Shown here one piece after another: positions 25,971 through 35,026 of a stretch of 46,321 nucleotides of DNA. Made by a program: the position numbers and the translations under genes. The notes beneath the pieces were generated by a model, which worked only from the letters and a program-made list of their open reading frames with translations, was not told the origin of the DNA and did no database searches. How positions within the stretch are numbered: position 1 is the stretch's first letter; each line of letters starts with the position of its first letter. Source of the stretch: an uncultured Lentisphaerota bacterium (GTDB lineage: Bacteria > Verrucomicrobiota > Lentisphaeria > Oligosphaerales > CAITYL01); assembly GCA_903896595.1 (NCBI GenBank), contig CAITYL010000126.1, positions 1 to 46,321 on the forward strand, in the 5' to 3' direction.

Positions 25971-30641
<4,671 letters not shown>

Positions 30642-31018
30642 AATAAAGCGCCACCTGTCAGACGGTCCGTTGCCGGCCCGCCGTTGCCACCGTGTTCTAG
30701 ACGCGTTGTACCATACCCGCAAACGTAACGGCGTTAAAGAAACTTGTATGCCAAATAGTAAAATTCAACCGCATGCCCCTAATATCCCGATGATTATAAA
30801 TTAACCGTGCATTTACCAAATAACAAAAACTTACATAAATGTAAATATTACTTTATTAATAACAAATTTGTTGGTAAACGGCTCACCTTGGCGAACTACC
30901 GGTTTGACTACTGGCCTCGCATCGGGAGTTGATAGGCGGCGGCATCAACCACAAAGCCCCTTTGCCCCCCCGTTCCACCCCCCGTGGTAAGCAGCCTCCC
31001 CCGCTCGCCACCCGGCAT
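30642..31018. promoter_or_regulatory. Leader and palindromic AT-rich region upstream of gltB
   Basis: The first 80 bases are GC-rich, then comes an AT-rich block at 30730-30890. It holds the palindromes ttacat-aa-atgtaa (30831-30844) and aacaaatttgtt (30861-30872) and the inverted words tttaccaa (30811-30818) and ttggtaaa (30871-30878). Such dyads suggest binding sites for a regulator of the minus-strand gltBD operon, perhaps nitrogen-responsive, but no known consensus is matched. The part 30890-31018 has no gene. Confidence 0.45.
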
Positions 31019-31051
31019 AATCAAGATTGGAGCCTGTCCCCAATCTTGATT
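31019..31051. repeat. REP-like hairpin upstream of the transposase-like gene
   Basis: The perfect 12-bp stem aatcaagattgg (31019-31030) and ccaatcttgatt (31040-31051) encloses agcctgtcc and ends in TTTTT. The core ggagcctgtcccc is the form of repeat commonly found next to REP-associated tyrosine transposase genes. A second, imperfect copy (gattagagcctgtcccc) is on the far side of the gene at 32146-32162. Confidence 0.65.
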
Positions 31052-31118
31052 TTTGCGGACAGCGCTTTGACTTTCTTTTATTTGTCATTATTTTGTTAGC
31101 ATAAATGAAGGACACGCC

Positions 31119-31814
31119 ATGCGCCTGCCACGACAACGGAACGACCACGAGGACACGCTCTACAAGATTTCCAACCAGCTGCTCGGCCGCGTGGGGGAGA
31201 ATGTGCTTGACCCGCCGGCCATGAGGCGATTACGGCTGATCGTCAGCCAACTCTGTCGGCTCTATGTCATCAAGGTGACGCTGCTGCAGGTCACCGCCGA
31301 CGGCTACGGCATGCTGGTGGCGGTGCCGGCGGCAACGCCTTCGCGGCAAACAGTGGAGGCCTGCTTTCGCACCCGCCATGGCAGCGCCGCCCCGCTGCCC
31401 GACTTCGACGATCCAGCGATCTTGCGCCGCTGGACAAAGCGGTTACGCGACGTCAGCGAGTTCGTCAAGGACATGCAGCAGCGCTTCACCGTCTGGCTGA
31501 ATCAGGTCAAAAACCAAGGCCAACGACATGGGTCAAGCTGGTGCGGCCGCTTCAAAAGCAGTATTGTCGGTTCGGCCCGACGAGTTTTCGCGGCCTTGAA
31601 CATCGGTGCCTGGATAGGTGCGCCGCGCTTTGACCTTACCCGCCAGTGGCAGGATCCGCGTGCGAACTCCGCATGGCGGCGCTTTTGGGATCGGCATGAC
31701 ATGTTGAGCGAGGTGCTGGAGACGATGGGGCAGCTCGGAGACGCCATGGTGGCGTCCATGCTGAGCGGTTCCGTTTCCCCATTGAAAAGCCCGTTTCGGC
31801 CACGAAGACACTAA
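31119..31814 (+). CDS. REP-associated tyrosine transposase (RAYT)-like protein, catalytic residues lost
   Basis: A 231-residue basic protein with the outline of a Y1/RAYT transposase: DTLYKISNQ at the N-terminus, LYVIKVTLLQVTADGYGMLVAVP where active members read M-x-N-H-x-H-x-L-x, and EFVKDMQQRFTVWLNQVKNQ ... GSSWCGRFKSSIV where active members have Tyr before Asn and W-E-G-R-F-K-S. Here the HxH pair is replaced by Asp61-Gly-Tyr-Gly64, and the expected catalytic Tyr position reads Trp126. The frame is nevertheless intact over 231 codons. The C-terminus (PRFDLTRQWQDPRANSAWRRFWDRHD) is unlike the usual end. It is flanked by REP-like sequences at 31019 and 32146. It may be domesticated or simply decaying. 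Confidence 0.7.
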   Translation: MRLPRQRNDHEDTLYKISNQLLGRVGENVLDPPAMRRLRLIVSQLCRLYVIKVTLLQVTADGYGMLVAVPAATPSRQTVEACFRTRHGSAAPLPDFDDPAILRRWTKRLRDVSEFVKDMQQRFTVWLNQVKNQGQRHGSSWCGRFKSSIVGSARRVFAALNIGAWIGAPRFDLTRQWQDPRANSAWRRFWDRHDMLSEVLETMGQLGDAMVASMLSGSVSPLKSPFRPRRH

Positions 31815-32360
31815 TCCGGCGAACAGGCGCGTCCATAGAGACACTTCGCCTTGTGGCATTGCCCCAAGGGTGACGGCGCATGCCGGGAACCGCCTTGCCC
31901 CACCCACCAACAGTGTGATGCACCCTGGGAAAACGCGGCCGCCATGGCCGGCGACAGCCCCACACGCTTGCGAACTTCGCATCAGTGCCGGTTGTCAGGC
32001 GTTGTTGCCGCCGGCGAACGGCGCCAGGACCGCCAGACTTCCACAGGGCTCGGATGACGGCAGGCGTTTTCGCCATTTCCACGGGAATCCGACCCAACGA
32101 TAGGCCTTCCGCGTCCACGCGCATGACCAGTGTGGCAAGAATTCAGATTAGAGCCTGTCCCCGAGCTGCTCCCCTATTATGATCAATGTTTTAGCCATGC
32201 CGGATTGGGGTGACCGAAGCATCCTGTCCGGATATCAATGTTTCAGGAATGACAGCGGCGCATTGATCGTGTAAATTGATGCGCTTTCCGGCCCCGCCGC
32301 CCGCAGGACCGCGAAACCGCCCCCCTTAAAACCATCACGTTGCGAATAAAGACCCTTTTC
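31815..32360. other. Intergenic region after the RAYT-like gene
   Basis: No gene is supported in these 546 bases. The only clear item is the REP-like remnant at 32146-32162. The stretch 31815-32145 is GC-rich and may be decayed downstream sequence of the transposon-like gene. Weak ORFs here on both strands have no recognisable product. Confidence 0.5.
32146..32162 (+). repeat. REP-like remnant downstream of the RAYT-like gene
   Basis: The word gattagagcctgtcccc matches the centre of the hairpin at 31019-31051 (gattggagcctgtcccc) except for one base. The right arm is lost, so this copy no longer folds. Confidence 0.55.
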
Positions 32361-33677
32361 ATGGATACCCTGCTTGCCCAACTCAATGCCCCCTTGCGAG
32401 CCAACCGTTTGGCGGCCTTGCACCAGATCGCCGCCGGCGGCCAAGCCAAGACCCTGCACGGCCCGGCCACGGTCGAGGTCAACAACCACGTCCACACCAT
32501 CTATTCCTTCAGTCCGTACGCGCCGGCCATGGCGGCCCTGCAGGCGGCCAAAGCCGGTCTGCAAGCCGTCGGCATCATGGACCACGATTCCGTTTCCGGT
32601 TGCGCTGAAATGCTAGTGGCCGGCAAGAGCCTGGAGATCGCCACCACCTGCGGATTTGAAGTGCGAGTCAACGCCACCGGCACCGCCCTTGAAGGCCGGA
32701 AGATCAACAATCCGGACTCGGTGAACATCCTGTACATGGCGGTGCATGGACTGCCGGCCACCCAGTTCGAGCGGGCCAAGACGTTTTTGGCGGGCATCTC
32801 CCGCAAGCGCAACCAGCGCAACCGCGCCCAAGTCGAACGGCTGAACGCACGGCTGACGGCGCTGGGGCTGCACCCGCTGGATTTCGACCGCGAGATCGCC
32901 GCCATTTCCTGCGCCTCCGAGGGCGGTTCCATTACCGAACGCCACATCCTCTGCGCCCTGGCCAAGCGCATTGCCGAAAGCAAGGGACGCGGCCAGCCGC
33001 TCATCGCCTTCCTGCGCGACCAGCTGGGGATGCAACTGCCGGCGAAATTGCAGGAATACCTGACGGACGAAACCAACCCGCATTTTCTCTATGACCTGCT
33101 CGGCGTGCTGAAAAGTTCGTTCCTGCCGGAGTTCTTCATCCAGCCCAGCGAGCAGGAATGCCCGCCGGTCGGCGAGGTCGTCAAACTGGCTCTGTCCATG
33201 CAGGCGATCCCCGCCTACGCCTATTTGGGCGATGTCACCGAATCGCCCACCGGCGACAAAAAAGCCGAAAAGTTTGAGGACGAGTACCTGGACCTGCTGA
33301 TCGGCGAACTCGGGCGCCTCGGGTTCCGGGCCGTCACCTACATGCCGCCCCGCAACACCCTGGCCCAGCTCGCCCGCGTTCAGCGCCTGTGCCAGCAGCA
33401 CAACCTGATGGAAATCAGCGGGGTCGACATCAACAGCTCCCGCCAGGCCTTCTCTTGCCCGATCCTGCTCAAGCCCGAGTTCGCGCACCTGGTGGAGGCG
33501 ACCTGGGCTCTGATCGCTCACGAGAAACTGGCGACGCTCAAGCCGGAGCACGGCCTCTTCCACCCGCACAACCCGCTGGCCGCCCAGCCACTCCCGGAAC
33601 GCCTGCGGACCTACGCCCGGATCGGCCGCCGGATCGACAACCGCGCCCCGGAACGCGTATCACTGGATCTGGCGTGA
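32361..33677 (+). CDS. PHP-domain metal-dependent phosphoesterase-like protein
   Basis: A 438-residue protein. The N-terminal PHP motifs are NNHVHTIYSFSPYAP (His43 and His45, the HxH pair) and GIMDHDSVSG (Asp74-His75-Asp76), which bind two or three metal ions in the PHP superfamily. A later EISGVDINSSRQAF and the C-terminal HPHNPLAA may supply further ligands. The middle (residues 120-320) is an insertion with several helices and is not a canonical PHP region. The length and insert are unlike histidinol phosphatase, so substrate and pathway are unknown. ATG 32361 is chosen over TTG 32340; neither has a strong ribosome site. A repeat hairpin follows at 33688-33723. Confidence 0.75.
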   Translation: MDTLLAQLNAPLRANRLAALHQIAAGGQAKTLHGPATVEVNNHVHTIYSFSPYAPAMAALQAAKAGLQAVGIMDHDSVSGCAEMLVAGKSLEIATTCGFEVRVNATGTALEGRKINNPDSVNILYMAVHGLPATQFERAKTFLAGISRKRNQRNRAQVERLNARLTALGLHPLDFDREIAAISCASEGGSITERHILCALAKRIAESKGRGQPLIAFLRDQLGMQLPAKLQEYLTDETNPHFLYDLLGVLKSSFLPEFFIQPSEQECPPVGEVVKLALSMQAIPAYAYLGDVTESPTGDKKAEKFEDEYLDLLIGELGRLGFRAVTYMPPRNTLAQLARVQRLCQQHNLMEISGVDINSSRQAFSCPILLKPEFAHLVEATWALIAHEKLATLKPEHGLFHPHNPLAAQPLPERLRTYARIGRRIDNRAPERVSLDLA

Positions 33678-33835: not shown

Positions 33836-35026
33836 ATGGTTCAACCAGGCACAGAACAACCTGCCGACTGGGCGGTCGAGGCGATCGGCCTGACCAAGGT
33901 CTTTCGCGACTTTTGGGGTCGCGCCAAGGCCAAAGCGGTCAACGGCGTCGACCTGCGCATCCGTCGCGGCCAGGTGTTTGGCCTGCTGGGTCCCAACGGC
34001 TCCGGCAAGTCCACCACCGTTAAAATGTTGCTCGGCCTGCTGTATCCGACCCGCGGCAGCCTGACCGTACTCGGCGAAAGCCCGCGTAATGTGGAAGTTA
34101 AGCGGCGCATCGGTTACCTGCCGGAAGAAACCTACCTCTACCGGTATCTCACCGCCGCGGAAACGCTCGACTTCTTCGGCGCCCTGTTCGGCCTGACCGC
34201 CGCCGAACGGCAGCGCCGCACCCAGCAACTGTTGGCGATGGTCGGCCTGGAAACCGCGCGCAACCGGCCGGTTGGCGAGTTCTCCAAAGGCATGGCCCGC
34301 CGCATCGGCCTGGCCCAAGCCCTGATCAACGACCCCGACTTGGTCATCCTGGACGAACCCACCTCCGGGCTTGACCCGATCGGTTGCCGCGAAGTCAAAG
34401 ACTTGATCCGGCTCCTGGCCAGCCGCGGCAAGACCATCATTCTCTGCAGTCATCTGCTGGCGGATGTCGCGGATGTCTGCAATGAGGTGGTGGTGTTCTA
34501 CGGCGGCCGCATCCGGGCCCAAGGTCAGTTAAACGATCTGCTGGCGGTCAAAGACCGCACCCGCATTGAAGTGCCGTGCCTGGAGCCGGCCCTGCTGGCC
34601 CGCGTACTCGAGCTATTGAACCAGGCGGTCGGCTCCGGCCAGATCTCGGTGTCCCAACCCGCCATGGACTTGGAAGATTTCTTTCTGGAGGTGGTCCGTC
34701 AGGCCCGCGAAGCCAGTGTGGACACGTCCGGCGCCCGCGCCGGCGGTCCGGTGGCGGAATATCTGCGGACCGGCGGCGACACCGCCGGCCCGGCCGTGCT
34801 GGAACGCCTGGCGGCGCCGGCGCCCGCGCCGGTCGCCACGCCCCCGGTGCCAGCCGCCCCGATTCTCGCACCCGCCCATCCAGAAGCGCTGACGAGCGTC
34901 GCCGACACACACCCGGTCGCGCCTCAGCCAGCCGCCGGCGGCCGCCCCCCCCCAGCCGAGGCCGCCGCCCCCGCGGTGCGTCAGGCCGCCAATGACCGTC
35001 TCAAATCCATCCTCGACAAGGAGTGA
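33836..35026 (+). CDS. ABC transporter ATP-binding protein with long Pro/Ala-rich C-terminus
   Basis: A 396-residue ATPase. The Walker A motif GPNGSGKST holds Lys59. The signature FSKGM lies at 149-153, Walker B LVILDEP at 169-175 with catalytic Glu174, and the switch His206 is in CSHLL. It is most like ATPases of the ABC-2/gliding-type exporters (VEAIGLTKVFRD; LGLLYPTRGSLTVLGE; GYLPEETYLYRYLTAAETLDFFG). Residues 270-396 form a tail rich in Pro and Ala (APAPAPVATPPVPAAP). No permease gene is adjacent. It is followed nine bases later by a TPR membrane protein with which it is probably co-translated. The ribosome site of ATG 33836 is poor. Confidence 0.88.
   Translation: MVQPGTEQPADWAVEAIGLTKVFRDFWGRAKAKAVNGVDLRIRRGQVFGLLGPNGSGKSTTVKMLLGLLYPTRGSLTVLGESPRNVEVKRRIGYLPEETYLYRYLTAAETLDFFGALFGLTAAERQRRTQQLLAMVGLETARNRPVGEFSKGMARRIGLAQALINDPDLVILDEPTSGLDPIGCREVKDLIRLLASRGKTIILCSHLLADVADVCNEVVVFYGGRIRAQGQLNDLLAVKDRTRIEVPCLEPALLARVLELLNQAVGSGQISVSQPAMDLEDFFLEVVRQAREASVDTSGARAGGPVAEYLRTGGDTAGPAVLERLAAPAPAPVATPPVPAAPILAPAHPEALTSVADTHPVAPQPAAGGRPPPAEAAAPAVRQAANDRLKSILDKE

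Follow-up and report, generated by a model that had tools for sequence, protein, structure and literature searches.

Elements of the IS200/IS605 type carry hairpin-bearing ends that are oriented alike on one strand. TIR-associated tyrosine transposases (TIRYTs) constitute subclass 2.1 of TnpAREP (PMC3733652, PMC6006769), and the nucleophile of class 2 Y1 enzymes is the tyrosine of a Y---NP motif, which in E. coli TnpAREP is Y115, with N119 as a metal ligand (PMC6006769, PMC8266576). A survey of Y1 proteins set aside members without the core motifs (HUH, Tyr) as probably non-functional, and IS200 genes are described as tending to decay (PMC6006769). In polyoma- and papillomaviruses, the origin-binding domains have an HUH fold that lost every signature motif and came to bind DNA (PMC6668415). 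The window analysed here (46,321 nucleotides from an uncultured Lentisphaerota bacterium) contains an element which, on present sequence comparisons, is a multi-copy REP/TIR-like repeat whose gene apparently encodes a catalytically dead relative of the TIRYTs. In the open-licence literature, we found no description of a constrained, multi-copy, catalytically empty Y1 lineage.

The gene is an open frame of 231 codons (231 aa) at 31119–31814 on the forward strand, as the sequence-only reading had stated, and is preceded by a Shine-Dalgarno-like GAAGGA upstream of the ATG (31107–31112, +; purine-rich in other copies). In Pfam, the protein has only a trace of Y1_Tnp (14.8 bits, cut-off 23); PADLOC, PHROGs and NCBIfam each gave no match to it, and alignment A1, used as a profile against the PDB, likewise found nothing. 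The AlphaFold model (mean pLDDT 71, pTM 0.68) contains blocks of 80–94 over residues 31–130 and is poor after residue 161, the expected place of the Tyr helix. Foldseek gave a probability of 1.00 for its matches to 2a6o, 2xm3, 2vju and 4er8; IS608, ISDra2, IS200 and TnpAREP are the best structural matches, which implies that the DNA-binding scaffold of those proteins is kept, with the known chemistry removed. The structure prediction and TnpAREP comparison that had been suggested as a check thus indicate a Y1 fold, which the window protein is predicted to retain.

An alignment of 18 proteins, comprising seven members of an HUH-less clade and 11 HUH-intact relatives (from the same genome and the class), locates the changes in the active site. 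The DTLYKISNQ and WCGRFKS sequences, previously recognised as landmarks, are in register with those of the family. The HUH strand of the window protein reads DGYG, again as first proposed, with the two histidines replaced by Gly62 and Gly64 and with Tyr63 between them (codons 62–64; 31302–31310, +); the corresponding residues are GYQ or GYR in a second genome (G007, Lentisphaerae bacterium ADurb.BinA184). The position of the catalytic tyrosine is occupied by Ile162 (codon 162; 31602–31604, +) and by Gly or Ser in other clade members, and that of the metal-ligand Asn of Y---NP by Ile166 (codon 166; 31614–31616, +) and by Lys or Pro in other clade members (PMC6006769), such that the tyrosine with Asn/Gln four residues on is absent. 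There is no gap in the window-protein alignment between RFKS and these two residues, and the YVEMNP of an HUH-intact relative aligns with the YIYINP of 4er8 in a weak match (E 0.28) in which the motif is in register. All four positions (H, H, Y and Asn) are lost in 7/7 clade members and kept in 11/11 HUH-intact relatives. Three of the four are filled differently within the HUH-less clade, across which Y15, Y63, D95, D97 and D118 are invariant.

Two other candidates for the catalytic position were rejected. Trp126, to which the sequence-only reading had assigned it, is an invariant tryptophan in 18/18 aligned proteins, and the nucleophile is the tyrosine of Y---NP, the position of which is Ile162 by the 4er8 alignment and published work (PMC6006769, PMC8266576). 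The tyrosine of the WYN motif, our own initial guess, corresponds to Leu127 in the window protein and is replaced by Phe in several HUH-intact relatives (L044, L045, L046 and L062); this conserved tyrosine is therefore dispensable and not the nucleophile. By its sequence, the window gene is a member of the Y1/RAYT-like superfamily, in which the TIRYT type is its closest kin. The loss of known catalysis, which had already been proposed, goes further than was thought, including the metal-ligand Asn as well as H, H and Y.

The element can be compared with several described systems. Kinship with the TIRYTs lies in the sequence likeness of the window protein to HUH-intact relatives of TIRYT type, the inverted motifs of which match that type and its consensus GGGGWSAS; the window flanking motif CTGTCCCC, the complement of GGGGACAG, also fits this published TIR consensus. 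The window protein differs in its lost HUH, Tyr and Asn residues, in its length (231 aa versus about 320), and in the absence of the C-terminal HTH-like extension, and the motifs flanking its gene are direct, not inverted. In the non-coding tail inside the element (31815–32149, +), nothing recognisable is left of the C-terminal domain that the HUH-intact relatives have. RAYT/TnpAREP proteins with REP sequences (E. coli TnpAREP, 4er8) share the Y1 fold with the window protein, and the window gene is likewise flanked by palindromic repeats which also occur alone; however, the catalytic residues are missing, GTAG is absent at both feet of the hairpin, and the repeats are few (~20 in the genome). 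With the TnpA proteins of IS200/IS605 (IS608, ISDra2) the likeness extends to the fold and to hairpin-bearing ends in one orientation on one strand, but the window protein has neither HUH nor Y---Q, no adjoining tnpB was seen, and the chemistry of the known mechanism would not be possible. The viral origin-binding domains provide a precedent for the change of an HUH fold into a binding domain (PMC6668415), although they are located in replication helicases and have an unrelated history, whereas the window protein is stand-alone, bacterial and repeat-borne.

The repeat unit reaches beyond the two hairpins, extending over ~1.27 kb (~30930–32198) with outer limits that are not sharp; neither this extent nor the multi-copy nature of the gene figured in the sequence-only reading. 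Its left arm (30930–31018, +) is common to copies C224 and C294 and to the gene-less sites C112, C203 and C212, as revealed by blastn and alignment. The adjoining left hairpin is as first described: the palindrome AATCAAGATTGG-AGCCTGTCC-CCAATCTTGATT lies exactly at 31019–31051 (+), forms a perfect 12-bp stem with a 9-nt loop (AGCCTGTCC), has a folding z of −5.9, contains the core motif GGAGCCTGTCCCC at 31029–31041, and has no second occurrence in the window when up to 3 mismatches are tolerated (0 in shuffles). A promoter-like block, TTGACT-16-TATTTT (31067–31094, +), is nearly invariant in six copies. The right motif, AGAGCCTGTCCCC (32150–32162, +), is oriented as the left one and has one mismatch to GGAGCCTGTCCCC; its hairpin is degenerate and forms no stable structure (z = 0.22), so that its earlier description as a remnant is fair for the window copy, yet the motif is intact at the equivalent place in C224, C294 and C162. 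The right arm (32163–32198, +; approximate outer limit) is common to C224 and the gene-less site C212 by blastn and alignment. Genome-wide, the 13-mer GGAGCCTGTCCCC has 15 exact copies in 5.8 Mb (0 for the reversed control), and a 17-mer with ≤2 mismatches identifies ~20 credible sites, ten of which adjoin gene copies, the rest being solitary. The element sits between divergently oriented genes: on one side a gene (25971–30722, −) which, judged from its sequence, we take to be glutamate-synthase-like, and on the other a PHP-domain gene (32340–33677, +; its Pfam score falls slightly short of the cut-off) and an ABC transporter ATPase gene (33836–35026, +).

The genome of origin (G000; 404 contigs, 92% complete, 5.8 Mb) contains five full-length intact copies, C126 (the window), C224, C294, C377 and C162, the other four being 84–90% identical to the window protein, and one further, internally deleted copy (C104). 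By blastn, similarity between the copies begins and ends close to the motif sites, with unrelated outer flanks, that is, the copies are dispersed with common ends as in a mobile element. Beyond the motifs, arms of ~40–170 bp on the left and ~35–55 bp on the right are each common to subsets of copies. The gene-less sites C203 and C212, which are paralogous rather than orthologous to the occupied ones, consist of a left arm, one motif and a right arm, both arms matching C294 and C224, respectively; either recombination between the two direct motifs deleted the gene from them, or they are members of the repeat that have no gene. Between the two motifs of C33 there is no cargo, only host-type genes. 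Two tandem motif sites 33 bp apart, without a gene, were observed at G000:C403:3199-3248 (L106, L107). Elsewhere, at G000:C201:43097-43911 (L163, L166), two Y1_Tnp matches are separated by 488 bp; it seems that either a Y1 gene has been duplicated in tandem or the assembly has duplicated it.

The substitution pattern points to purifying selection on the window protein rather than decay. Pairwise dN/dS (NG86) among the five copies is 0.16–0.41 at dS 0.19–0.29, alongside 0.14–0.19 for HUH-intact copies in the same genome and 0.19 between two HUH-less genes of G007, the latter at a dS of 1.5 that is near saturation. None of the five intact copies has a stop or a frameshift, and the 111 copy-private changes include 0 stops, for which the neutral chance is 0.7%. 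Copy-private omega is ~0.28 for the window, 0.31 for C224, 0.34 for C294, 0.66 for C377 and 0.83 for C162, with the caveat that some of these changes may predate insertion and that gene conversion between copies is possible. Pooled, the copy-private changes depart from neutrality at p ~1e-4, as do those of the window, C224 and C294, which keep both ends, at p 0.005–0.02 each. These three are the constrained copies; C162 and C377, which look relaxed, lack the tail or have it in shortened form. Such a pattern is that of a lineage replicating under constraint, with damaged copies gradually decaying.

A search of 198 genomes of the class found the HUH-less clade in two, the genome of origin and G007, an incomplete genome from another family of the same order. 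The two HUH-less genes of G007 share 41% and 35% identity with the window protein and have TGYQ and TGYR in place of HUH; the search of relatives that had been suggested as a check thus shows the catalytic loss in another family as well. In trees, the seven HUH-less proteins form one clade with support of 100/99, or 100/100 after exclusion of the HUH, WYN and Tyr regions. The simplest reading of these sequences would be one old loss before the two lineages separated; transfer of an HUH-less gene between them is possible. No further HUH-less members were found in a phylum sample, IMG/VR or plasmids, and a scan of genome contigs gave 0 matches with a single-sequence query and only the ADurb.BinA184 pair with an alignment query.

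The HUH-less clade and its relatives also differ in the arrangement of their end motifs. In 42.7 kb of sequence flanking clade members and relatives, there are 54 occurrences of the core CCTGTCCC, compared with 5 of the reversed control. Among the HUH-intact relatives, 12/12 that have a motif within 300 bp upstream carry the nearest one reversed, and the downstream motifs are nearly all forward, giving terminal inverted repeats. At every copy of the HUH-less genes in the two genomes, the closest motif upstream points forward, giving direct motifs (Fisher p = 0.0045 for 3 clade lineages versus 9 others, the counts of independent lineages being an estimate). Elsewhere in the two genomes, Y1 genes have no flanking CCTGTCCC motif pairs. 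The flanks of the core differ within G000, being ATTCACCTGTCCC at HUH-intact relatives versus GGAGCCTGTCCCC at the HUH-less element; ATTCACCTGTCCC-like repeats flank the HUH-intact TIRYT-type genes L007, L008, L009 and L011, and at L011 as many as four follow one another every 23 bp. G007 contains 118 dispersed copies of GGGTCTGTCCC (for example at L128, L134 and L145; reversed control 0), often clustered, and in that incomplete genome no Y1 genes other than the HUH-less ones were seen with flanking GGGTCTGTCCC; no description of this repeat family was found in the literature. Bases adjoining the GGGTCTGTCCC sites in G007 pair no better than shuffled ones (p = 0.71). The extended hairpin was accordingly rejected as a general feature, since the G007 sites and the right site of the window copy are without it, and only the CTGTCCC core is shared.

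The window protein probably works by binding DNA rather than by cutting it, and binding to its flanking hairpins is plausible. The reading that we favour over the others, at about even odds, is that it binds the CCTGTCCC ends without cutting while an HUH-intact TIRYT-type protein cuts in trans. The dead protein would bind CCTGTCCC-core DNA at the element ends, in single-stranded or cruciform form, and perform no chemistry; HUH-intact TIRYT-type proteins, which are present in both genomes and whose own ends share the CCTGTCCC core, would cut and join in trans. It would be kept if copies making it spread or persist better, the benefit possibly being the recruiting or synapsing of ends, autoregulation, or restraint of the active enzyme. 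In this scheme, binding, supply in trans, mobility itself and the role of the protein as helper, autoregulator or brake are all presumed, and the different core flank and inverted, not direct, motifs of the HUH-intact relatives in G000 argue against trans-mobilisation. A longer history is possible, although we advance it tentatively: an old lineage may have lost its transposase chemistry before reaching two families, flipped its motifs from inverted to direct, and come to aid its own spread as the non-catalytic partner of a trans-acting HUH enzyme.

Were the protein mainly a dominant-negative regulator, occupying CCTGTCCC ends and limiting the active TIRYT-type enzymes in the cell, the coexistence in both genomes of HUH-intact relatives with a shared motif core would be explained, as would the retention of the fold core with removal of the catalytic residues and loss of the C-terminal domain; yet in G000 the two families have different sequences beside the core, and inhibition alone does not account for the spread of its own copies, and we consider this quite unlikely. 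The sequence-only reading had favoured domestication, here a host DNA-binding protein (nucleoid or regulatory) acting on dispersed GGAGCCTGTCCCC sites. Lost catalysis in a constrained frame, ~ten additional motif sites without a gene, and HUH folds turned into binding domains elsewhere (PMC6668415) are all compatible with that proposal, but the several copies and patchy occurrence of the gene make it less likely: five dispersed intact copies accompanied by decaying and gene-less ones, with the clade in 2/198 class genomes, are what a selfish or repeat element shows, and constraint is weaker on copy-private changes and in tail-truncated copies. Single-copy occurrence, vertical inheritance and a conserved neighbourhood, as looked for in a domesticated gene, were not found, and we judge host domestication unlikely.

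The protein might instead be catalytic through a rebuilt active site of non-HUH type and still move its own element. This would fit the combination of copy multiplication and coding constraint, which is the pattern of a self-moving element, and such a site could draw on the clade-invariant Y15, Y63, D95, D97 and D118. We nonetheless think it improbable, given that H, H, Y and Asn are gone with three of the four positions variably filled in the clade, that no conserved new metal site was identified, and that the region of the Tyr-bearing helix is poorly predicted. Simple decay, with the frames still open by chance, merits hardly any weight; it agrees with the view that Y1 proteins without core motifs are probably non-functional and that IS200 genes tend to decay (PMC6006769), and with the internal deletion in C104, but is contradicted by dN/dS well below 1 among the copies and between the two G007 genes, by five copies free of stops and frameshifts at dS 0.19–0.29, and by the conserved promoter-like block. 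Broken orthologues or neutral drift, named beforehand as the outcomes that would reduce the gene to a decaying transposase, were thus not what we observed.

The binding-without-cutting reading bears on how Y1 proteins are classified and on how REP/TIR sequences spread. At least one Y1 lineage without HUH or Tyr appears to be under selection and to multiply, contrary to the treatment of such members in the survey (PMC6006769). The clade may therefore be a natural case of separated roles in REP/TIR systems, with presumed binding in the absence of cutting, and as such it addresses their mode of spread. As intact enzymes coexist with the HUH-less genes, trans-mobilisation would be directly testable.
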